This document shows positions 27,068 through 51,793 of a stretch of 64,000 nucleotides of DNA, one piece after another (the first letter of the stretch is position 1; the number at the start of each line of letters is the position of its first letter). The stretch covers positions 119,918 through 183,917 of the forward strand of contig JADGJP010000047.1 in assembly GCA_027603065.1 (NCBI GenBank). Direction: 5' to 3'. The DNA comes from Geranomyces variabilis (taxonomy: Eukaryota > Chytridiomycota > Chytridiomycetes > Spizellomycetales > Powellomycetaceae). The translations under genes and the position numbers were made by a program. The notes beneath the pieces are model-generated. The model had not been told where the DNA came from. It worked only from the letters and a program-made list of their open reading frames with translations, and searched no databases.

Positions 27068-30000
27068 TCATCGTCCTCCCCGCTCTCCCTTCTGCCAAAT
27101 GACACTCAAGCGGTTCTTGACTTTATTGCCCATGGACATGCTCCTCAGCCGGCTGGAGCGCATCGATGCAGATTCACCGTCGCCATACGCGAACGGGTCA
27201 ACGCCGACAGGCATGTCTGGCATTGGAGGCGGCGGCATGGGCGGTGGATACGGCTCGCTGCCGCCTCGGTCACCAAAGCTGCCCACGCGCGGTAATTCGC
27301 CTGACGTGCCGCGGAAACGTGCGAACCCGGAGCGAGAGCCTCCTCCCGTGCTATTACCGCTGTGAACGGAATCGCTCGACCGATGGATTGATTCAGAGGA
27401 CTCAAAAATGGGTCCGTTATACAGGTTATTACCGGACCCGCCAGACGACGGACTTGGGACGTCGACGCTGCCTCGCGATACTCGGAATGGGTCGTAGCCA
27501 GATCCGGGTGCGGCGTTGTCAGCAGAAGTTGACGCACGGCGAGAGCCCTGCACTCCGGGCAGTGATTCACCAGAGTGATTCGATGAAATGGACCCAGTGC
27601 TTCCGTACCGCTTGCGGTCGCCAAACGATGGCATCCAGCCAGTGTCCCGATCACCACTGTTTCCATTACCACTGCCTCCGCCAACGTTCATAAGAGCTTT
27701 GATGAATCCCTTCCCTGCGCCGCTCTTTTTTCGCACATGTCCACGCAGTCCGCTCCGTTCTGGCGGTTCTGGTGGCGGTGGGTAATATCGCTCCAGGTTT
27801 TCGTTCTTCATCGACGGCCAGCCGTTGTTTGATCCAGAACCCGGAGGCAGATCAACATTGCGCGACCCTTTGCGCTCTGGCGGAATGGGTGAGGCGCCGC
27901 TGTCGCTGGGCCGTCGCCGCCGGCCGCCGGAGGGACTAGAAGGTGCCGGACTGCTCTGATTGCTGAACCCGTCCCGCGGGGCGATCGCATCTAAAATGTC
28001 GTGCAGCTCTTCCAGCGAGCCGCCATCCCGCGAACTGTCGGCAATCGCGCCAAAACTTGGCGAGGCCTTGATTCGCGAAGCGTCGGTTGAGAAATCAGTT
28101 AAACTAATTTGCGGCGGTCTCTCGGTGACCTCGGGCTGCGTGGCGTTCATCATCGAGTTGGCATAGTTGGCGGAAGGGAGTACCACCGGAGACACCTCCG
28201 CGATCCGGTCGCGATTGGTGATGCTGCCCATAAGTCTCCGCAACCCTTCGCCTCCAGTTACCCCGCTGTTGCCGCTCTTCAACCCTTGCAATGCTTCTTC
28301 GCTTGTAAATGAGGCCACGGAGCCGCCAACGTGTCCTCCCCGGCGGAACTCCTCGTGGGTGGCCTGCAGAATCCTGCATTCGCGCACAAGCTCTAGTAAA
28401 ACAGCGCTGTCGCCCGCCTGCTCCGTCAGAGGGTCAAGATGATTCGCGAAAAACTGAAAGAGGCTTTCTACATCTTTGCGCGGCACTGATGCAGACGCGT
28501 TCTCCCTATTTGGTGCTGGCGAGGCGGGGCCTTCCGGCCCGATTGTCGATATGCCATCGATGAAAGCTTTCATGCTGTTTATGTTGGCGGCGATAAACGG
28601 GTTGCATTCGGCCATGAACGGCTCTTTCGAGCCGAAATCAGACAAATTGGCAAGGTTCTGCAGGATCTTTGCGATGAGCGTAAAGGTCCGAGAAGTGGAC
28701 GGATCGGGTTGCTCGGGAATCAGGTTGAAAATCTTCGGGTTCAGAATCGCCGGGCAGAAAAAGCGGAGAAAAATGAAACCACTGATGGCCACGTATTGAA
28801 CAGACTGGTTGGGTTCCGTGCCGTCCGCGCCGTTCCACTTGCGTAAGGCAGTTTCTCGCACGAACGCAAACACCTCTTTCAGCTCTCGCGGACACGAGCG
28901 CACTGATTTGGATATTGCGTCCCAAAAATTCTCCACAAGTCCCTTCAGCTTGCGCCAGTTTCGTGCAAGCGTATCAGCGTGATCAACGCGCGTCGGGTCC
29001 ACCTCACACGATTCCCTTGCAGTATAGACTTGGCGCACCAACAACCCGATAGTGTCAACCAGATACGTTGTGCCGACAACCTTCATGTACTGGTCCAGAG
29101 ATTTCGTGGCCATGCTGTTGCCACGGAAGATGATGTTTGGGTTGTCGGTTGCCTGTATTTCATCACCTAGTAGCGTGCGCAAGCCCTGCAGCTCCATTTG
29201 CTCGCTCATCAGAACGCTAATGAATACTTTCGCAACCGCTTCTCGTTGTGTGCCGCAGACAGTGCCAAGCATTTTGATGCCAGCAAACGAAGGCTCTGTG
29301 AGCAGCTCAACGAAACGCGCGTAGTGCTCCGCGGGTAAAAGCTCCTGTATCACAAGGCTGAACGCCACCCGGATCGACCCCTTCGCTGCCGCATCAGTAT
29401 GATTTGGTCGCGGAAGCTGCTTTATTGGATACCACTGTTCGATGCGAGCCGAGGACTTGCTGGTGTTGAGGTTGATACTGACGTATCCCAAGTCCGTGTC
29501 GCGCTGCAGCCGGCTGTGGTTGAATACCACGAGGCGCAATCGCGAGAAATGCGCGCAAATGTTTGGAATCTCAAAGTCCTCTCCCCAAAACGGCGCATCG
29601 CCGTTTTTGGTCGTGGTCCGCGACTGCTTTACGTCGTCCAGCAGCGCAATGCAGTACGGATTGAGTCCAGTCAATCCCTGCGAACCTTTCAATTCCTTTG
29701 CTTCCATCACCGATAAATTAAATGATCGTGTAATGGTGAACCCGTGATCGTCCGAATCCAGCGTGGAATGCACGCCTGTTTGTTCCCGCGCAATAACCCC
29801 TTTGATGCAGCAAGACGCATAGCGCCGGAGCAGTCGCATCCAGTCGTTTTTCGCCGCGGCGCTCTCGGCGATCAAGTTATGCGTCTGTCGACCTTTACGA
29901 GTCATGCTCACGATTTGAAGACAATGCGGCTTGGTGAAATAGCTATTGTCAAGGTGGTGAACGGCGCTTTGTGGCAGACATATTATCTCGCGCGGTTTCG

Positions 30001-31651
30001 ATGCAGCTTCATTGTCGAAACAATAAAGCATGCCTTCGTCCATAAGCACAAAATACCGACTCTTCCATCCTGCTACAAAATCGCCACGCTTCAATAGCAT
30101 TCGGCCGGCTTTCACCGGGTTCGCCAAAGCCGCAACCGAAACATTGTGACCCTGCTGCCCGACTTCGTCAACCATGTGTGCCTCCTGAAATTCCTCATTG
30201 TCTTCCTCTAGGTCAATCGCTCCCAAGCGCTCCGAGAGAATATCAATCGCGGTGATCGTCGTGTCTCGACATGTCTTTTCCAAGTACACGACGTCGACAA
30301 GGACCTTTTTGACGGCGCCTGATCGTTCAAGTTCGCGTTTTTTGATTTCGTCATATAAGCTTGGGAGCATTTGGCCATAGTATTGCTCCTACGAAAATGG
30401 CACAACTTTTTAGGCGCTGAGACTGCAAGCCGGATGGCATGCGCGAAGACTTCAAGAAAAAGCACAAACCTGACTGTCTTTACATATCTCTCCAAACACC
30501 TGCAAAGCTTCGTTAGCTGCGTCAGCTCTGTCGGTAGCCACGGTCGCCCGGTTGGCTAGCTATATGTAGGAAAGACCTCAGCTTTGGGTAAAATTCAAAA
30601 AAGTCAATGTGAGGCAAATGGCCTACCTTCTCCAGTTCTTTTTCCCGCGCGTTCGTAGTCAAGCGCGTGCGCTGAAGGTTTTGTTGCATCTCATTGGCGC
30701 TGTTTTGCAGAGCATCGTAATCCTCCTTTGCCTACAGAACCCACACATAGAGAAATCAGACGTCATGCGGCAGTTTTTGAATGAATATTTGGCGGCCTTA
30801 CTTTCTTCAATGCGGCATACGCGTCCTGTAGATTCCTCATATGATCCACGCTCTTATCCACTTGCTATAATCAATGGTTGCGGCACATTAGGGTCACTGC
30901 CACGGGAAAATTTCACCAACGGGAGACGAGCTATCGGCCACACCAACCATTTTGCGGACAACCTCCATGTCCTTGATCAAAATGGTGAATGGCTCCATCA
31001 CGTTGTTTTGCATCGCCAACGCGAGATTCCGCTAAAGTAGTCAAATGGTCAGTCTTCAAACGGTTCGGAGCGCACAATTGGCATGGTTGTTCCACAGCTG
31101 CTTACATGTGTTTCGGCCGTCTTCGTGATCTGATCCACGTATTCGTAGAATGACGACCATACGGATCTAACGAGCAACGGGCCCAAAAGCCACCGACTCA
31201 GTAAGGCAATACTGGGAAGAAGAACAGTTCTTTCGCCGGGCATCAGAAGACTCACGTCTGAAGGAGCTGGGCGCGAATATGGTCACCGGCGCGCTCGCCC
31301 GAAGTCGACGGCCGGCGCTCGGATTCCCTGCCAGTGGTGGACGGCCGTCGTTCTGATTCCCGTTCCTTTGACGGAGCGTCCATCGCCTGAGACTTCTGAT
31401 ACCCTTGGGCGAGTTTGACTGTTTCGCAGGAAAACAACTAGTGGTGAATATACCGCGGCGCCACACACTCATTCCACGTCCGTTTTTTTTATGGCTTTGC
31501 CAAAACGCAAGTTGAAAAGCGGCCGGACTCTCTTACACAAGCTTTTGGCGTATTCCATTTCGACCATAGAGCGTTTTCGCAAGAAGGCTGCCAGCTCCCG
31601 GCATTGCCTCACCGACTCGTCGGTGTACTGGAGGGCACTACTGCAGGTCAT
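27068..31651 (-). CDS. F-BAR, PH, C2 and RasGAP multidomain Ras GTPase-activating protein
   Basis: The protein should switch off Ras at curved membranes. Eight exons (31651-31537, 31418-31256, 31166-31106, 31031-30948, 30864-30802, 30731-30627, 30559-30470, 30388-27068) give 1333 residues. Seven small exons encode the F-BAR domain, residues 1 to about 250: ELAAFLRKRSMVEMEYAKSL, then KLAQGYQKSQ and long heptad-like helices. A PH domain lies at about 318-418 (GWKSRYFVLMDEGMLYCFD), C2 at about 440-565, and RasGAP at about 583-855. The arginine finger is Arg649 in IIFRGNSMATK, and the FLRFFCPAILNPK motif is present. The last 450 residues are Ser/Gly/Pro-rich and disordered, with basic clusters. 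The first exon has a stop upstream in frame, so the ATG at 31651 is the best start. The domain order differs from animal RASAL/SynGAP by its F-BAR. Confidence 0.9.
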
Positions 31652-33063
31652 TGAGTCATCGCCGAGGGTTTGAGAGAAACGGACGCGTCGTTAAGAAAGG
31701 TTGTGATTGAGTCGAGGAGCAGAAGTCGACAAGTTGCGTTGTTGTTGTTTGGGTGGTGAGATGACGATTCCCCAGAATGAGTAGTTTGTGGCAGCGTTGC
31801 GGTTGCGGTTTGGTGCGGCGTGTGTAGCTGCCAGTGGATACGAACGATCGGCGGGGCGGGCGGCGCCTTCTTTATTATGTCAGCACCTGCGCCGCCCTCC
31901 GTCCACTCCTAATGGCCACAATGTCTGACAGAGTCGCCCACGCGCACAGGCGTTTATGATATATGATTCGAAAGATGGACGGAAGCCGCCTGGGCTGATG
32001 CAAGAAATGTTGAGAGCCAAGGCTGAATGGTGCGCACCAATTGTCTATCATATCAACACCTGGGCATAACTGACAGCTTGCTCACTCCTGCCCTTACAGC
32101 ATGTGGCCGACCTTCCGGTGAAAACCTTCGACCATGCGGAGACACCTATAACAAAGCATTTTTAAAAAACTGCCTGCTGAGCTTTCTGATACCGTTCACG
32201 CTATAAACTGACACATAGCTATCGCACACAGGCATATTTCGTGCACCCGGTTCAGTTGGTTCAGCAGATTTTGTGGATCTGTAACCGACGGGACCGAGAA
32301 CCGCCTTCTTTCCAATCGAGGGTACGGAACAGGGTATTCATTTACAGAAAACGTAGGAGCCGCATGGGTGCGCAGCTGAAGCAATGAGCGCTTTTTTAAT
32401 TTCTGCGGCGCGCAGCTCTGTGGCTTTCCTTAATTACCTCCCGCTTGTGCGCAGCACCAGTATTTTTCAATACCAATATTTCCGGGCATCGTAAGCAGTA
32501 AGCGGAAAAAGCCTTGTCACCTGCATTTGCCGGGTCTGATTGCGTGGGAAATGCTTAATTTCGCGTTGAGTGTTGCTGCGCATCGAACGCGTCGGCTTCT
32601 TTTTGTTGCTGATGGCAGGCAGGCGGCCTAGGCACTCACGGTCAGCCGCCCCCTCCTTCCCTTCGCTGCACCCGCCCCCGCCCCGCCCGCGCTGGGCCAT
32701 AAAAGGGCAGAGGCCCGCACCGGGCTCCCCTCACTTTTCCCTTCACCCACTGCCTTCTCTATAAAAGACCGTCTGTCCTTCCCTCGCTCCCTCCCTCGTC
32801 TGTCCTCTACTTCCTCTCACACAACACCGAGACCTGCCTGCCCGTGGAGTGGTACGCCAAAATATGTCACATACTGTCCCAGCAACCGCGAACACACCGG
32901 CCGGCCACTCTGTTCCTCGCACAACACACTTTGCGAACACACTTTGCGCAGGCCGTTCCTTTCTTTACTTCCTTTGCTGGCACAACATGTTGACTGTATT
33001 GGCGTACCCCCACCGCACCCTCCCGTCCTCACTCTGCCACGCCACTCCCTGTTTCTGATCCTG

Positions 33064-40149: not shown

Positions 40150-40405
40150 ATGTCGATTAATCTCCACGTTCGTGCAGTCTCGTTTCTTCTACCAGATCCG
40201 CCCATGATTTGTTTTGTATATACCATCTGCTACTCATTGTTGCCAATTGAATCGTGGCGAAATTTTGCCGATTCGCAAGAGCTGTAAGAGTATAAGTATT
40301 GTAATTTGGTAACAAAGATTTTTGTCGAAAGTCTCCCTTTATGAAAAAAAAGAAGCGGGGCAGCGCACTGCGCTCGTCCCCACCTCGCCGAGTCGGTATA
40401 TAAAA

Positions 40406-41833
40406 TTACAGCTTTTCGATGTACTTTTTGATGAAATCGTAAACACGTTGGTTTGTCCGGATGTCTAGGAACTGTTTCCGCGTTGCCTTGCGCATTTCCG
40501 CCATCTTGGCCCCCAAAACTCGGAAATGGTCCGCTTCTCGAACAGAAATCATGTAGGCGCACATGATGAACTCTACCGGCTGTTGCAAAGGATCGACAAA
40601 GGTAGAATACGTGAATCTTTGAATTCCAGCGGGCGCGCGGTAAGAAACCACCATGTAACCCACTTACAGCCATTCGCGCTGGTTGCGTAAACAATTCAGG
40701 CACGTTCATCGCGACATCTTCGAAAATGTTGAGCACTTCGCTGACGAGATTCCTGTGGCGTTCAGACACACGTTCCTTTTTCGAAATCTCCTTATCAACG
40801 TGCTGCCCGCTTGGGCATTTTAGGGGACTAAAGCAGACAGTAATGAAGATTTGCCCGAGAACTGTAAAACCAAGTTTCCGCCGCGTTTCGATGCGACCGA
40901 GCAAGTCTTCGTGTTTCTGGAGCGAAGATAGAAACTGTTGGCAAAAAAAATTTCCACCCAAGAGCTGCTTAACTCTTAACATAACACTCACGATCATGAG
41001 TTCCCGGATGAAATCTGCCAACGGTCCGCCTTTGGCAAACAAGCGCTCTGATGTCGTCAGCGCAACTCCAAGCTGCACTCTCCTGAAAATCTCTTGCTCC
41101 TGCTCGAAAGATATCCCCCGATATTGCACGCAGATCATCTGCATCTCGCCAAACTCCTTTTGCTCCTGGGTCGACATAACGCGGACTTTTGCAGATGTCT
41201 TGCGCTTGGTGTGACTGGAAAACCACACGCGCTGGCCGGTTACAGAGTCGATTTGCGGGATCTCGCCCCGCATAAAGCGGAATATCGACGTCAGGCGCTG
41301 TTTGCCGTCGATTGCGACGCGAATATCAAGTCCGCCTGGACCCTCGTGAATAGAGAAGATCACCGGTGGGACGTAATAGTGCTTAACGAGCGAATCGATG
41401 AGATGTCCCTGCTTGGCCGAATTCCAGACAACATCGCGCTGGTAAGGCGCGTCCAAATCAATCACACCGGAACCGATATGTTCTGACAGAAAAAAGTGAA
41501 GCGGATGGGAGGACGTCAGGACGAGCGAGAAGCTTGCGCGCACGCGCTAATGGGCATTGCGGCCGCATCACACATACGAATAAGATCGCGAAATGGCACG
41601 GTGAATGGCTGCGGGGCGCTAAGGGCAGCGTTTGCTCTGCGCTGAGATTCGGCGGCCTCCTCGTCAAATTCTTCGTCGTCGTCACTGTCAACCTCGTAGT
41701 CGCTCTCGGGCGGCGCAACAGCACGTTGCGTTTGAGCTCGAGTGCGCCGCCGACCGGTTTCCTCCACCAGTTGCTGTTGCGAGTCGGGAATGTCTTCGTC
41801 CCATAGAATTTCGTCTTTGATATTCGGGGGCAT
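40406..41833 (-). CDS. DUF262 (GmrSD N-terminal / ParB-like) domain protein
   Basis: Four exons (41833-41578, 41482-40992, 40934-40668, 40579-40406) give 395 residues. The N-terminal 85 residues are acidic and disordered (DYEVDSDDDEEFDEE). The body holds the DUF262 signature: YQRDVVWN, then VAIDGKQRLTSI around residues 138-148, and a later FRRVQLGVALTTSERL. In bacteria DUF262 is the N-terminal nuclease/NTPase domain of GmrSD-type restriction enzymes; fungal homologues of unknown role exist. The partner DUF1524/HNH domain is absent. A YDFIKKYIEKL helix ends the protein. It is head-to-head with the sorting nexin, 270 bases apart. Family assignment rests on motifs read by eye. Confidence 0.85.
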
Positions 41834-42103: not shown

Positions 42104-45100
42104 ATGGAGAGGCTTGCCGTTCCGGATGCCCCGCGGCCGCATTCCTTCATCGCCCCGCCGGCAGCTGAAGGGCTCCTTGCTCCACCTCCCGTTCCGCCAA
42201 GACCATCCACTTTGCGTGCCCGAAAGATACGAGATTGCGCAATGGTCTCGCTTGCTGCCCGCAAGTCCAAGGCGAGAGCGTCGTTGTCAAACCTTGGATG
42301 GAGCACCGACCACACTCGCGCCGTTAGCGAGGGGTCTCGGCGCGAGGCACCACCCCTGCTTCGAGCCGACAGTGGCGGCATCTTTGGTGAGTGTGTACCC
42401 ACCTGGCTAGTTATAGACAGCGAACGCGGGATCGCAAGGCTAACATTGCTCAATCGCAACATTTAACGATATTCAGAGGGAACATCCTTCACGGGAGAGG
42501 AAGACATATCCGGAATTGGCGGAATGGCAGGCTGTGGCAGTGGTAAACAATCACTGGACTTTGCTGTTTTGTCTTGTGTGTGCAACCTAAATCTCTTCCT
42601 CATGGACAGGCCCAGGACGAGAGAGCCGTCAATCCTCGCTGGGCTACTCGATCCCCACGATAACTCGTACTTGGAGCGATTCGTCGTCTGCAGACACGCC
42701 GCCTGGCACGGCGACCCCAGCCGAGAGCCTCCCGGTAGCAAAACCGGCATCCGTCCGCTCTTCGCTCTTCCGGCGGTCCAGCTCTAGCGAGTCATTAACA
42801 ACCGAGGAAACGATTTTGTCCAATGTGTTTGCAGGTCACCTTGCTCCAACAATTGCCGAAGCGCTACTGGAAAACGATGGGCTCGAGGTGGTGCCCGTGT
42901 ATGACGCGATCGCGATATGGGACTACGATCCGGATAGCGATGAAGGCGAGGACGCTGTGCGGTTCAAAGCGGGCGACAGGCTGAAGGTCTTCGGCAAACA
43001 GGACGTGAGGAACACGGTGCTAGGTGCGGGTGACTGGCAGGATGGCGTGGACTGGAACTGGCATCAAGAGGTGGAGGTCCAGGAAGGGTGGTGCCAAGTG
43101 GAAGCCCGAGGCGTTGTGGGTTTTGCGCCGGTCGCGTACATGCGCGTAAGTCTGTCGAAACGCCTGTTAAAGACTATCCATACACACTGAAGGGTGGCGT
43201 TTTTGCTAATGGTCCTTGTTACCATCTCTTTAGTTTGCCTCGGACAACACGCCGATGGAGACCAGATCTGAGGTTGAGCTGGCGATAGCCGAAAGACCCA
43301 CTCTCGCCAGCTTTGAGCCTAAGCCCGCGAAAATCACACAAAGCCATCTCACAGACTCGTATTTGGGAAGCGGTTCAAGCAATGCCGCTGAGATTAGCAT
43401 CGCCACGAGCGCGCCTGACTCGTCAGGATCGCAGCTAAACTATCCATCCGCAATGACCGCGCTCGGAAATGGTGTCGGCATGATCACTGGCCGGGTTCGC
43501 AAGAGCTTGAAGAGGCTGCTGGGCAGCTGGTTTGATGCGGACAGTGTGCAGGATTTCATTGTCGGGAACCAGAAGGGGGGCAGCGCCCGGCACATGCCTC
43601 CCATTCTTGTCGACGACGACTTTGACTTCAGCGTTGAACTAGACCGCGGCACTATCTCGCTCACGGGCGACAATCATCTCATTCAGGTGTGGCTGCCGTA
43701 ACGCAACGGTCCCGGTCAGCTCCGTAACACTGAACCCCACCTCTTGTTCCGCCTCTTTTGTCTTTAGAGAGATTTCACATGGGCGAGCAACGCGCCAACG
43801 TTTAACGTCACAATACAGTCTGCCGAGCGACGACGTAAAGTAACGGTCCATGACTCCTCCTCACGTGCGACAGTAACCGACGACTACATCGTGTACAAGT
43901 GCATAACGTGGTTCCAAGATGACGATCCAGGCACTTTTACGGCCCTCACCGTGTACCGCCGCTATGCAGATTTTGACTGGCTGGCAAGCCATCTCCAATC
44001 GCGGTTCCCACCCGCCGTTGTGCCGCTCCCAACTCTTCCACCGAAGCATATTCTTTCTGCACGGCGTTTTGACAGCGAGTACGTCGAGGCGCGGCGACGC
44101 GGGCTCGAGCGGTATCTTAACGCCATTGCACGGCATCCAGTGCTCAAAGCTGAAGAAGCGCTGGTGCTGTTCCTCAGTTGCGGCGGGCAGAGCGAGCGAG
44201 GGTTGAGTGAAGATGACGCGGATGACGCGCGTCAATCTGCCGAGTACGACGCTACGCAGGTCGACATTGTCGAGGAAGACCAGGAATGGCTGGTGGGGAA
44301 AAGGGATCATGATGCGGCGGTGGCAAGAACTCTTCACGGAGGCTCGGCGGGGCCAGCGAGCTTCTTCAAGAGGGTGGTGCTGGCAAGGGATTTGCATCCG
44401 GAGCATGGGTATCCGAATATGATGGATCGGTTCGCCACGCACTTGTCGCTTGTGGAATCGCACTTGGACCCGCTAGTTGAGTCGGCGAACAAACATCAGC
44501 AATGCACTTCCAGTAAGCAAAGACGGACAGAGAGGATGCGCATGTTCTCAGCGTACCATAGACGGACTCAATTCTAATTTTCTCTGCTGCCGTTCAAACA
44601 GATTTAAATGCACGCTACCGCGACCTTGCGGCGTGTTTAGAGATCCTTGGTCGCGGCCGCCCCGAAGCCGGGCGCCATTTGCGAAACTTGGCCTCATGCT
44701 GGAAACGTGGATGCTTTGAATGCCACGAGTTTTCAAACGCGCTGCTGGCAGTGTCAAAGCACCTTAACGGCGTGGCTGATATCTACGCAAATCACGTAAG
44801 ACAAGAGCACAGGGACCATGCTGCACAACCCGAGGACGACCACGCGGTGGATGCTGATTCCCTTGCAATTCTTTGTATTCCGCGTTCACAGGCCAAGGGA
44901 GACCTCGCCGTGTTTGCGGAAAGCGTGCGCGAATACCAGACCGCTATCACATCGTTTCAGGCTCTCTCGCAGCTGCACGACCTTGCCGAATCGCGGGCCG
45001 AAGAGCTCGAAAGCAGCACCACAGAGCAAAGCAGCCATTTGCCACACCATCGGCCATCGTTGCTAGTGAAAAATAACCCAAGTAGTAGTAAACAGCCACC

Positions 45101-45429
45101 ACAGCACAACTTCCATCATCACCAGTCCACGCCCAAGTCAGCGGGGCCCAAGACAACGGCAGCAGAAGCAGCCGGGATGAAACGCCGTCTGGAAACGATC
45201 CTGGCTGTCTCGCAGGCAGAGGTAGAGCGTCTGCATGGCGAAAAAACCCAACAGTGGGACGCCTGGGTCCGCGACTGGGTTGATTCCCAGATAGTAGCGC
45301 AGGAAAAGGTTAGTGAGGGGGCGCGAAAGCTCTTGCAAATGCTTAGGGCTACCGATAACGCTTTCTTATTTCTCTCCCAAGGTCTTGAATCACCTGTACG
45401 CGGCGCGAGACGCTTTGGCGCACAAGTAG
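42104..45429 (+). CDS. Sorting nexin with SH3, PX and BAR-like regions (SNX9-like)
   Basis: Proteins of this layout sense phosphoinositides and bend membrane in endocytosis. Seven exons (42104-42386, 42477-42542, 42610-43145, 43234-43686, 43768-44512, 44602-45308, 45382-45429) give 945 residues. Residues 1-205 are Pro/Ser-rich. The SH3 lies at about 210-292 (VVPVYDAIAIWDYDP, then GVVGFAPVAYM), with an acidic loop insertion. The PX domain is at about 455-580: APTFNVTIQ, VYRRYADFDWLASHL and PLPTLPPKHI. Helices from about 640 on fit a BAR domain, interrupted by a His/Gln/Ser-rich linker. Exon 5 was started at TCTTTAG (43767) because this restores the first PX strand. In-frame bases 44847-44891 could be one more intron of 45 bases. 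Residue numbers are approximate. Confidence 0.9.
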
Positions 45430-45750
45430 TATCTCACTCGCGGGGCGCCACTTGGCGGTACAAAGTTAGTATGTAGTTTACGGTAACCCGAGTAATGGTA
45501 AAATAGTTAGGGCATGCAGGCATGCTTGTTTTTTTAGCGGAGCTTCGACAGCTTAAGCAGTTTATTGGTTGTATGAAGAGGAGGAGCGGCTGCGTGACAG
45601 GGGGATTGCGGTTTTGTAGTCGGGTAGAAGGGCACAACAAGAGAGTTGGTGATTTTTGTGGTGGTGAGAAGGATTGGGTATGTCCAAAAGTGATTATTTT
45701 TTTTTGGTCGTAATTGGTGTTTGATGGAGGGCGGTTTCATAGCGATTCCG
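45430..45750. other. Convergent 3' region sorting nexin / eIF4E
   Basis: These 321 bases lie between two stops. T-rich runs (gtttttttag near 45530, ttttttttggtcg near 45700) fit transcript ends. No exon was seen. Confidence 0.45.
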
Positions 45751-46594: not shown

Positions 46595-46918
46595 CGTGTG
46601 CACGGGCGAAGATGTCGACAGGCGATGGGCGGTGGAGAAGCGGACGGACGGCAGCTCTCGGAACGGGGGGGGGGGCCAACGTACAACCTAGATCTAGGCT
46701 ATTAATCATCCATTATACACGATACACGTGACGCGGTGACTGGCTGTGGGGTCTGTCTGTGAGAGTCTTTCCTTTTCCCATCTCCTGTTTTTTTTTGTTA
46801 ACTTATTCTGGCTATTTAAAACGCTCCCCACAGCCAGGCAGCAACCATCAGGTCATGCGGCAGGCTTACTTGCATAACTGCGACGGACACACATAGGTCG
46901 ACCGACTCTTTGCGGGAC
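46595..46918. promoter_or_regulatory. Divergent promoter region eIF4E / S6 kinase
   Basis: The 324-base shared upstream region contains ACACGTGA at 46724-46731 (TCACGTGT on the other strand), a run of 11 G at 46665-46675 next to the eIF4E leader, and T-runs near 46785. Both genes encode TOR-pathway effectors. Confidence 0.5.
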
Positions 46919-48577
46919 ATGCCTTCTAAGATATCGTTGTGGCAAAAGCCTTCATCCGCTTCTGCTCTTACCGTCGCGCTAAAGAAAACAATTTTGGTAA
47001 CTTCTCCTACCACTACTACTACGCCAACCGTCGCATACTCTGCTGCCGCAATGTCGCAGCCACGACCGCCGCCATCACCGCTGAATATCGCTGTCCCGCA
47101 GAGCGGCGGAGTTTACCGCGGCGATGACCACCGGGACAGTGACGACGAAGACGACAGCGGCGCCGTGTTTGCCTTTGACACTCACGAGCTATTTGACGCT
47201 GTTGCCGCTACCACCGCGAGCTCACGCTCTGACTCTCCCGCTGCCCACCCTACCATTGTTATTCACTCCTCAGCGTCCACTCCTGGCACTCCTGACTACT
47301 CGTACCCGCACCTCTCCCGGCCGCCAGCCGACGGCGAGGCGTCGCCGCTCGATTCACCAGGCGGTCCACGCCGCGTGTCGTATGCAGAGCCTGCCGACGT
47401 CTCTCAGGTTCTCGCTATCCATGACTTTGCTGCTGAGCCCGCGGCGGACGCTTTTACGCCAATGGGAACTCGAAAGCCGCGGGTCGGCCTGTCGGATTTC
47501 CACGTCATGAGCGTCATTGGCAAAGGTGCTTATGGCAAAGTCTTTCTTGTTCGAAAGCGGCCATCGCCTTTGGCCCCGTCGGCATCGACAGGCAGCCGCT
47601 CTGGAGGCGAGCTGTACGCGATGAAGGTGCTGAAAAAGGCCAGTCTCGTTGTCTGCGGCAAAGACGCCGAGCACACAAAAAACGAGCGTGGCATTCTCGA
47701 GGACGTTTCCAACCACCCATTTATCGTCTCGCTGCACTATGCGTTTCAGACAAACGAGAAACTCTATCTGATCCTAACGTACGCGTCTGGTGGCGAGCTG
47801 TTTACCTACCTCGCCAAGGAAAAGATGTTTGCCGAACCTGTGGCGTGCTTTTACGTTGCCGAACTGCTGCTTGCTCTCGAGCACCTTCACGGCCTTGGCA
47901 TCATCTACCGCGACTTGAAGCCTGAAAACGTGCTGCTTGGCGCCGATGGCCATGTCCAGCTCACAGACTTTGGCCTGTCCAAGGTTGCACTCGACGCACG
48001 CACCGTCTGTGGTACAATCGAGTTTATGGCGCCAGAAGTCTTGGACGACCACCGCACCGAGGGTTACGGCGCCGCTGTTGATTACTGGTCTCTCGGCGTC
48101 ATGCTTTTTGACATGTTGACCGGCAGCCCACCATTCACGGGCAACAACCGCAAAAAGATCATGGACGGCATTTTGAAGAAAAAAGTCGTATGGCCGAAGT
48201 ACCTCACCGTGAATGCGCGCGATTTGTGTAACAAGCTGCTGCAGAAGAACCCAACAAAGCGGCTTGGATCCGGTGGTGCGGCCGGTGCCGCCGCCGTCAA
48301 GCGTCATCCGTTTTTCAAACGCATCGACTGGACCCGTCTCGCCGCACGGGATGTCGCGCCGCCTCTTGTGCCCAATTTAGCCGCGCCAGAAGACACGTCA
48401 CACTTTGACGACTGCTTCACGTCCTTGCCGACCGAGTCGCCTGCCGAGAGGCCAGGCGTTGAGCTGGCCGGCAAAGTCATTCCTGGCGCTGCTGCTGCTG
48501 CGTCGACGGCCGCTGGTGAAGACCCGCTACACTACTTTCAAGGCTTTAGCTTTGTCGCCGAGAGCGTGTACCTCTAA
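46919..48577 (+). CDS. AGC protein kinase, ribosomal S6 kinase-like
   Basis: S6 kinases phosphorylate ribosomal protein S6 and other growth targets under TORC1 and PDK1. This intronless gene gives 552 residues from the ATG at 46919. A second ATG at 47051 (MSQPRP) is a possible start because the intervening sequence looks leader-like. The N-terminus is disordered and acidic. The kinase domain covers about 190-470: GKGAYGKV loop, YAMKVL Lys, IYRDLKPEN, DFGLSK, TVCGTIEFMAPEVL with T-loop Thr362, and PPFTG. The C-terminal AGC extension contains a turn-motif-like FTSLPTESP and the hydrophobic motif FQGFSF (about 540-545), the site TORC1 phosphorylates in S6K. No C2 domain is present, so it is not Sch9-like in layout; fission yeast Psk1 is a closer model. 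Confidence 0.93.
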   Translation: MPSKISLWQKPSSASALTVALKKTILVTSPTTTTTPTVAYSAAAMSQPRPPPSPLNIAVPQSGGVYRGDDHRDSDDEDDSGAVFAFDTHELFDAVAATTASSRSDSPAAHPTIVIHSSASTPGTPDYSYPHLSRPPADGEASPLDSPGGPRRVSYAEPADVSQVLAIHDFAAEPAADAFTPMGTRKPRVGLSDFHVMSVIGKGAYGKVFLVRKRPSPLAPSASTGSRSGGELYAMKVLKKASLVVCGKDAEHTKNERGILEDVSNHPFIVSLHYAFQTNEKLYLILTYASGGELFTYLAKEKMFAEPVACFYVAELLLALEHLHGLGIIYRDLKPENVLLGADGHVQLTDFGLSKVALDARTVCGTIEFMAPEVLDDHRTEGYGAAVDYWSLGVMLFDMLTGSPPFTGNNRKKIMDGILKKKVVWPKYLTVNARDLCNKLLQKNPTKRLGSGGAAGAAAVKRHPFFKRIDWTRLAARDVAPPLVPNLAAPEDTSHFDDCFTSLPTESPAERPGVELAGKVIPGAAAAASTAAGEDPLHYFQGFSFVAESVYL

Positions 48578-48821: not shown

Positions 48822-49652
48822 TCATGTCACTTGCCGAATTTTGCCACGTAGCCACGGGCCGTCCTTGTAATACCTAGAAGGTATGAACGGTTAGTGAGCG
48901 TCCACAGACTTCCGACCGGAGAACATAAACCTCTCTTACTTTGGATCGCAGAGCTGCATGGCGGCCCGAAGAAATGCGTATATATATCCCACCTCAACTG
49001 AGATAAAGAACGGCCGCTCAGTTCTGCTTTTGCTCACGCGAGAGCGACCTTTCCTGAACGCACAACCCACCTATCCGAAATACTACATAGACAAAAACGT
49101 ATCCGCTGGACCAGAAGTCGCACCGCGCGCCGTCGCATTCCTTGATTCGAGACTAATAGCGAGTTGGCGGAAGGCAGCGAGGATTAGCATCGTCCGATTT
49201 GCCGGCAGCTACATGCATGCATGTGCTATTTGTTTCTATTTCATCCTTCTTACCACTCCAATCCCACGGCACAATCCCATTGCGCCAGCGTATATGCACG
49301 CCGCCCACAGCGCGCCCGCGAATTCGTCCGTCATTATCCGCAACAGTCCCGCGCGGAACGGATAGCTTCCGGCAAACCGCAGGAAGAGCAGCAGGATGTT
49401 GGCGAGAAGGAGAAGGGCTTGGATGCTGTTGTCGGATGAAGAGGAAGGTAATTTGCATTGCAGTGTGTTAGAATGGTCTGGCAGGGCTTTGAAGGGAATT
49501 GGCGCTTTCCGCTTGGATTTTTACATATACGCGACCACTACGGTCACGAACGTATGCCGGGAGCGCTCCGCGAAAAGGGTTATGAAAAAGTCGCCGGCGA
49601 GGAAGAGTAACTGGAGCGCGGCAGTAAGCCGAAACGAGCGTATTTTGCGCAT
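48822..49652 (-). CDS. TMEM138: TMEM138 homologue (ciliary base membrane protein)
   Basis: In animals TMEM138 is a four-span protein needed for ciliogenesis and is mutated in Joubert syndrome. Five exons (49652-49525, 49425-49254, 49152-49071, 48997-48940, 48873-48822) give 163 residues, against 162 in human. None of the exons is long, so the gene is easily missed. The match runs end to end: FRLTAALQLLFLAGDFF, VAYIIQALLLLANILLLFL, PFRAGLLRIMTDEFAG, DFWSSGYVFVYVVFRI, LCDPKYYKDGPWLRGKIRQV. The last block mirrors the human DPHFYQDSLWLRKEF end. All introns have GT donors and AG acceptors, and the phases agree at each of the four junctions. It is head-to-head with MINDY-4, only 123 bases apart, and convergent with the kinase gene. 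Confidence 0.9.
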
Positions 49653-49775
49653 TTCTTGAGCTGTCGAAAAAACTTAGCCCCGGAGCCGACACAACGCGGC
49701 GCGTCCGTGCCGTCCGAAAACGTGCAGCTGTCCAAAATACTACAAAACTAGGTCTGGCTCGTTGCGTGGTTTCTC
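49653..49775. promoter_or_regulatory. Compact divergent promoter TMEM138 / MINDY-4
   Basis: Only 123 bases separate the two ATGs, the tightest divergent pair in the window. The stretch is moderately GC-rich with no TATA box and no TCACGTG. I could not see a convincing RFX X-box. Confidence 0.5.
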
Positions 49776-51793
49776 ATGAACCACCTTACCGCCAACCACC
49801 ACGCGGACCGCCTCAGCTCTGCACCACCGCTTACCAGTCGTGTTGCTTCAGCATCGGATCTTGCGGCCTCGTCGCACTCTTCGCGGGCGGTTGCCCTTGG
49901 TCTAATCCGCACCTACCTGTCCGACCTGCGTCTCACAAAAACCTGGAAAGCACTGAAATCAGAGCTTGCATCGCTTGAAGCTGTCGAAAGTAGGGAGGCG
50001 GACCCAGACTCGATCACTTTTCTGAAGCGCGCAGAGGTCGAGCAGTGCTTGGGCGTGGGCAAAGATAAAGTGTCTGGGGCACCGTTTTTCGAAACAGTTG
50101 TCGATATGTGGCGAAGCGGCAACACCATGTCGGGTGGGGCAGGAGGAAAGAGCTTGAGTGAGCAGAAGCTCAAGAAGGCCGAGGGAAGAAGCCCTGCCAG
50201 GTCTCGCTCCAACCTCGCAGCAGCAGACACGATATCCTCTGTCACCGCCGCGCGGCGGATGCGGAGACCAGCAGAGGAGGAGCCCGCGGCTGTTAGAGTT
50301 GACCGCCTTGCACAGCTCTCGGTTGTCTCAAAACCACTAGCCACTCGCGTATCGGGTGCTTCCTCACGGGCATTTGCCGGTGCGGAACCACTGCTTGATC
50401 GATCATTGCCGGAAGTCACAACGATGGTCTCATCACGAACTCCACCTAGCGCTATTTCACGAGAATCGATCGGAAAGCCAGAGCTTTCAGGCTTCCAATC
50501 GCTCAGCACGGCTGCCACCAGATATGCCACGGCGGGACCACCGATCGCTGTGCCGAAACAGCAACAGTCACGTCCTGCCTCTCCGCTCACCTATCCTGCA
50601 AAAACAGATCAAATGCAGGATCTGGAGCTTACAGACCACATCTCCGATTTTGACGACGATTATGACGATGTCAATCACAGCTTTAAACCTGTAGCTCACG
50701 CGAAACTTTCCGGAAATCCGGCGCTACCGTCCACCAACGCCTCTGCAGTACCTGCCGACGAGGCACAAGACCTCCACTCTCTAATTTGGGGATCACAAAA
50801 GCCTACGTCCGCATGGCTTACCGCTCGCTTGGAGCGCAACACCGCACCCGGTCTTGGATATGGGTTGATGCAGCACAAGGGCGGACCGTGCGGGCTGCTG
50901 GCTGCCCTGCAAGCAAGGCTCCTCATGTGTCTTTTGCGCGATGCAGGTCCTAAAGACGGATGGGCGCGGACAGACTTTGAGGCGGCATTGCCTCGTGCTG
51001 TCGCAGAGTGTCTGTGGGCAGCTGCTGGAGACAACAAAACGGCAGTCGTTGCAATGTAAAGTGTGTGTCGCTTTGCACACATCAGGAAGCTTTGTTCAGC
51101 CTCTCATGGTTTTCTCTTTTATTTAGTCCGAGCACGCATTCTGCGCCTACATCAGGCCCGCCAAAGCTCACGCGCCATCTCCTTCCCTCTCTCTCCTCAC
51201 TTGTTGCTTTCCTCGCACGACACCTGCCAAATCTCGCCCTACTTCCGATTCTGTACTCTCTCCTCTTAACCCGCACCCAAGCGCTCGTCCGCGCAGACAT
51301 GGACGATGCATCGACTCCGCTCATCGCGGCACACGGATACTGCACACAAGAGCTCGTAAATCTGGCGCTCATAGGCGTCGCCGCATCCAATGTCTTTGAC
51401 GGTGTGAAAACCATGGACCAACAAGTCCTCAAAGGCGTGGACTGCGCGACAACCGACATTGGGTTTCTCTCGCTATTCGAAGCCTTTGGCGTGTTGGAGG
51501 TTGGCGAGCGGTACAAACAACCGCGATACCCTGTGTGGGTCATCCACGCAGAGAGCCACTACACTGTGCTGTTTGCACCGCGGCTAGGTGCGATTGACGC
51601 ACGGCGATTTGAGCTTTGGTATTATGATGGACTGGCGAATCAGGACGCTGAAGTGGTTTTGCGGGTGACACTGGGAAAGGACGTTGTGGATGAAGAGTCT
51701 AGAAGCGAGCTTATCCCGCCTCTAGAAAGATGCATTCGAAGTCGGTGGAAGGGTGCCCATGTCCAGTGGGTAAACTGCGAGCCAATTTTATGA
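49776..51793 (+). CDS. MINDY4: MINDY-4-type K48-selective deubiquitinase
   Basis: MINDY enzymes are cysteine proteases that trim K48-linked ubiquitin chains. Exons 49776-51055 and 51127-51793 give 648 residues. Residues about 38-60 (LGLIRTYLSDLRLTKTWKAL) resemble a LisH-type helix motif. A Ser-rich linker follows. The C-terminal catalytic domain has LMQHKGGPCGLLAALQA with nucleophile Cys372 and the Gln seven residues before it, then AHGYCTQELVNLALIG and ESHYTVLF with catalytic His571. YYDGLANQ is also family-typical. MINDY-4 is absent from budding yeast. It converges on MTC1 with 131 bases between stops. Confidence 0.93.

Follow-up and report, generated by a model that had tools for sequence, protein, structure and literature searches.

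Does this stretch of DNA encode TMEM138, a membrane protein of the ciliary base, and if so, what kind of organism does the gene come from? A first-pass annotation had joined five short exons into a protein that it read as a full-length TMEM138 homologue, and had taken the genome to be that of a flagellated fungus. We examined the gene itself, the 64-kb stretch in which it lies (64,000 nucleotides, hereafter the window) and the published distribution of ciliary proteins among fungi.

Structure of the gene and its match to TMEM138

The gene is read from the minus strand, with its ATG starting at 49652 and its stop codon ending at 48822. It consists of five exons (128, 172, 82, 58 and 52 nt) separated by four introns (99, 101, 73 and 66 nt), every one of them GT-AG, and the exons join in consistent phases to give 163 residues and a stop codon. 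The limits, the five exons, the phases and the product length of the first-pass annotation all proved exact; the strand, which it did not give, is minus. The exons are as follows:

49525..49652, minus strand: exon 1, with the start codon at 49652; ends in AT, followed by GTAAAA
49254..49425, minus strand: exon 2, which by itself scores 27.5 bits and so passes the Pfam TMEM138 cut-off of 27
49071..49152, minus strand: exon 3, by itself without a Pfam match
48940..48997, minus strand: exon 4, closing with the CDPK of the C-terminal block; by itself without a Pfam match
48822..48873, minus strand: exon 5, encoding YYKDGPWLRGKIRQVT and the stop codon

The joined product matches the Pfam TMEM138 profile (PF14935) at 72.3 bits (E 7e-20, cut-off 27) over profile positions 2-117 of 119. 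A 161-residue model with a donor GTATAT 6 nt upstream reached 66.4 bits and was dropped in favour of the 163-residue model with donor GTAAAA, because the latter fits both the profile and human TMEM138 better. In a single comparison with human TMEM138 (which PF14935 scores at 164.6 bits), the 161-residue version gave 43/142 identities (E 1e-21), and a PDB search with it returned no match. The 163-residue model aligns globally with the same reference over its full length, with 50/161 identities, in agreement with the end-to-end likeness that had first been noticed. A pattern search for relatives in viral_contigs produced 37 fitting stretches, none of which was confirmed.

Because the junctions of the first-pass annotation had been picked by eye with the target in mind, it is conceivable that chance open frames were joined so as to resemble TMEM138, and exons 1, 3 and 4, each scanned alone, indeed give no Pfam match. 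Against this stand the match of exon 2 alone to the profile and, above all, a spliced alignment of the DNA to the human protein in which GT-AG introns of 50-150 nt could be chosen freely. The true minus strand scored 196 and the plus strand 33, against a maximum of 47 among 200 dinucleotide-preserving shuffles (mean 32.8, sd 4.1) and of 54 among 112 other window stretches taken on both strands. The 163-residue model attains this optimum of 196, as judged by comparing scores rather than alignment paths. Unspliced, the region was scanned against PF14935 in five frames: one minus frame reached 26.5 bits, just below the cut-off and through the exon 2 part only, and the profile was absent from the two other minus frames and from two plus frames. 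Two shuffled proteins and one reversed protein likewise gave no match to the profile. Since the profile match and a spliced-alignment score far above its controls are both attained by the 163-residue model, we conclude from these comparisons that the gene product is a TMEM138 homologue and not an artefact of junction picking, and we regard a fortuitous joining of frames as having a negligible chance of being correct. The identity first proposed from the letters is thus borne out by a profile search.

Codon usage modestly favours the coding frame. With a model trained on fourteen other ORFs of the window, the joined exons had a log score of +16.5 in the coding frame versus -71.1 and -27.5 in the other two frames. 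In-frame stop codons made part of this gap, and the score was therefore recomputed without them, giving +9.5 for the coding frame, -29.2 and -27.7 for the other frames of the same strand, and +5.8, -23.4 and -40.2 for the reverse-strand frames (which contain 2, 3 and 4 stops). As one reverse frame comes to +5.8 against +9.5 when stops are excluded, we have toned down the use of codon usage as proof of coding.

The predicted protein has the size of its family, whose members run to about 160 residues and cross the membrane four times, and probably also its topology: at 163 residues, it shows seven overlapping Kyte-Doolittle peak windows that we grouped into four regions (residues 9-27, 38-71, 77-100 and 113-137), in line with the four hydrophobic spans reported at first reading. 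Its C-terminal block reads DPKYYKDGPWLRGKIRQV, as had been claimed. Within it lies the tail motif DP-x-[FY]-Y-x-D-x-x-WLR, a pattern drawn from the human sequence; the corresponding stretches are DPKYYKDGPWLR here and DPHFYQDSLWLR in human TMEM138.

Neighbouring genes and the source of the DNA

Three features of the neighbourhood matter for what follows:

46820..48577, plus strand: ORF for an AGC kinase whose nearest PDB match is ribosomal S6 kinase beta-1
49653..49775, no strand assigned: interval of 123 bp that separates the start codon of TMEM138 (minus) from that of MINDY-3/4 (plus)
49776..51793 (approximate limits), plus strand: MINDY-3/4 deubiquitinase-like gene (PF13898), in two overlapping ORFs and hence with at least one intron

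A chimeric origin of the DNA was set aside, as GC content is even across sixteen 4-kb blocks (0.525-0.565) and both neighbours are eukaryotic genes. Scans for tRNA genes and Rfam families across the window returned nothing.

We scanned 54 distinct window stretches besides TMEM138 against Pfam, a sample of the possible exons rather than all of them. The curated cut-off was reached by 28 of the 54: V-ATPase E, Gar1, ING, TFIIA, listerin (two), Exo84 (two), FCH, RasGAP, HSP70, SRP54 (two), Gtr1/RagA, GmrSD_N, PX, WASP-binding BAR, eIF4E, AGC kinase, MINDY-3/4 (two), Striatin, WD40 (two), Ku (two) and SRP68 (two). No ciliary family is among them, so that TMEM138 has no ciliary companion at cut-off among the other stretches scanned. 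Below the cut-off, the SRP54 GTPase resembled NPHP3_N (16.8 bits against 24.8) and WD40 ORFs resembled IFT140 (16.6 against 27) and the WDR90/POC16 propellers (31.3 against 60); such matches are to be expected of generic P-loop and WD40 sequences. In tetrapods, TMEM138 is linked to TMEM216 (PMC7312350); here, no scanned stretch of the window matched the TMEM216 family. That no second ciliary gene turned up in a sample of 64 kb means little.

Several other genes of the window deserve mention in their own right. An FCH/F-BAR-like stretch (31472-31690, minus strand) has a PH-C2-RasGAP ORF (27068-30388) shortly downstream, also on the minus strand, and 27068-31690 is possibly one F-BAR-PH-C2-RasGAP gene. 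An apparently eukaryotic gene at 40230-41546 (minus strand) carries a GmrSD_N domain, which is restriction-endonuclease-like. At 42591-45476 (plus strand), ORFs in a row match SH3 (weakly, below cut-off), PX and WASP-binding BAR, an arrangement that resembles animal sorting nexin 9.

The HSP70 of the window shares 80.4% identity with yeast Ssa1, compared with 76.2 and 76.7% for two human HSP70s and 77.0% for an algal one; it has 26 residues in common with the yeast protein alone, against 6 with human and 14 with the alga. Gar1 and listerin had their highest PDB scores against chains that we take to be fungal; for RagA/Gtr1, SRP54 and the S6-kinase-like ORF the best chains, above the yeast ones, were those we take to be animal. 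For Exo84, the two PDB chains, one from yeast and a shorter one of the PH domain, span different parts of the protein and so are not comparable. Mainly because HSP70 is closer to yeast Ssa1, with the PDB comparisons of the neighbours mixed, these similarities make a fungal source likely, not proven. The fungal genome of the first-pass annotation therefore holds as a likelihood and, with the RagA, SRP54 and kinase neighbours nearer to presumed animal chains, falls short of an established fact.

The gene could instead come from a ciliated opisthokont outside the fungi or from another protist, for example one that is choanoflagellate-like or ichthyosporean-like, in which case its function would be unchanged and only the kingdom would differ. 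The three neighbours nearer to presumed animal than to yeast chains would fit such a source, as would the good HSP70 matches to animal and algal chains, whereas the excess of yeast-only HSP70 residues and the higher scores of Gar1 and listerin against presumed fungal chains speak for a fungus. We consider a source outside the fungi unlikely, if still worth some weight.

The interval between TMEM138 and MINDY-3/4

The two genes are divergently transcribed, with 123 bp between their start codons, and the interval contains two degenerate X-box-like matches, both on the plus strand, where about 0.2 would be expected. This expectation derives from a window-wide count of 111 over the two strands of 64 kb, and as the matches were sought post hoc with a loose pattern we do not treat them as evidence. 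It is tempting to speculate that TMEM138 and MINDY-3/4 are a pair of divergent ciliary genes sharing a single 123-bp promoter with X-box-like sites, and that a zoosporic fungus would already have both RFX control and a ciliary function of MINDY-3/4. If true, the RFX control of ciliary genes, which has been proposed as arising on the way to animals, would already exist in such a fungus. According to the text of Chu et al. that we consulted, choanoflagellates and, of 51 fungi, Allomyces macrogynus are the only non-animals in which RFX factors and IFT genes occur together, and Batrachochytrium is without RFX (PMC2873420). Given this distribution, RFX control in a fungus is possible, and it is unsupported here. 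Judged by title and opening lines of the abstract, none of the papers that mention both appeared to link MINDY4 to cilia. The divergent ciliary pair is, in our estimate, a very long shot.

A probable flagellated fungus and the proposed role of its TMEM138

The reading that we favour, and hold to be probable, is that a ciliated eukaryote, most likely an early-diverging, zoosporic fungus, carries in its nuclear genome an intact gene for TMEM138, a protein of the ciliary transition zone. By analogy with other transition-zone proteins, whose published distributions we draw on here in the portions consulted (PMC4092220, PMC13358043), the organism is probably flagellated and probably makes swimming spores. 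Barker et al. describe 19 transition-zone proteins found only in cilium-building eukaryotes, and the 19, as given in the consulted part of that survey, do not include TMEM138 (PMC4092220). Kossakowski et al. mapped 394 flagellar orthogroups over 184 fungal proteomes, and in the part of the paper that we drew on, 210 are specific to flagellated fungi under a definition that permits one residual protein in non-flagellated fungi; in 16 of the flagellated-specific orthogroups every protein has a membrane span, and all 16 fall outside the minimal set (PMC13358043).

A fungus without cilia might retain TMEM138 as a relic or for some other membrane role. Such retention would suit the lack of a second ciliary family at cut-off among the 54 stretches scanned, and the definition of flagellated-specific orthogroups leaves room for one residual protein in fungi that lack flagella (PMC13358043). 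The intactness of the gene, with its GT-AG introns and coding-like codon use, tells against it, as does the confinement of 19 transition-zone proteins to ciliated organisms in one survey, as far as its consulted text goes (PMC4092220); we give it a slim chance.

What the DNA establishes directly is a spliced gene for a 163-residue TMEM138-family protein with four hydrophobic regions, and its localisation, topology and function we infer from the worm and human orthologues. In C. elegans, as described in the consulted part of one study, localisation of TMEM-138 to the transition zone needs MKS-5 and CEP-290, and not the core MKS or NPHP proteins (PMC4794247). In a zoosporic fungus, TMEM138 would accordingly be expected by analogy to sit in the membrane of the zoospore's flagellar base, where it may be recruited downstream of an MKS5/CEP290 scaffold and may help to form a gate that selects the membrane proteins entering the flagellum. 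The conserved DP-x-x-Y-x-D-x-x-WLR tail is probably cytosolic. The protein would be made at zoospore formation, and the walled thallus would be able to do without it.

Flagellated fungi are known to retain a large number of ciliary proteins, membrane proteins among them, and in the light of the two surveys above a zoosporic fungus with TMEM138 would be expected rather than surprising. Galindo et al., in the portion of their text consulted, followed 61 proteins specific to the flagellum across 43 species, from which they inferred three large losses of the flagellum in Holomycota, with one more ongoing in sanchytrids; TMEM has no occurrence in that text (PMC8371127). A full-text search of the literature, covering main texts and in some cases titles and the opening of abstracts, gave among the matches listed no report of TMEM138 in a fungus or chytrid. 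Mutations of the human TMEM138 gene occur in Joubert syndrome and, in one reported family, in OFD6, according to the consulted part of the worm study (PMC4794247). The presence of TMEM138 in a probably fungal genome would mean that the common ancestor of fungi and animals already had it, and would make a simple organism available for its study.

Compared with human TMEM138, the protein is of nearly the same length (163 against 162 residues) and has the same four hydrophobic regions and the same C-terminal DP..Y.D..WLR block. It differs in its overall sequence, with about 31% identity (50/161), and in two single-residue insertions in the part around and after span 3, ahead of span 4. The main text of Kossakowski et al. 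has no occurrence of TMEM; its supplement may already list TMEM138 (PMC13358043). The gene resembles the ciliary set specific to flagellated fungi in that study, its product being a ciliary-base membrane protein in what is probably a zoosporic fungus (PMC13358043).
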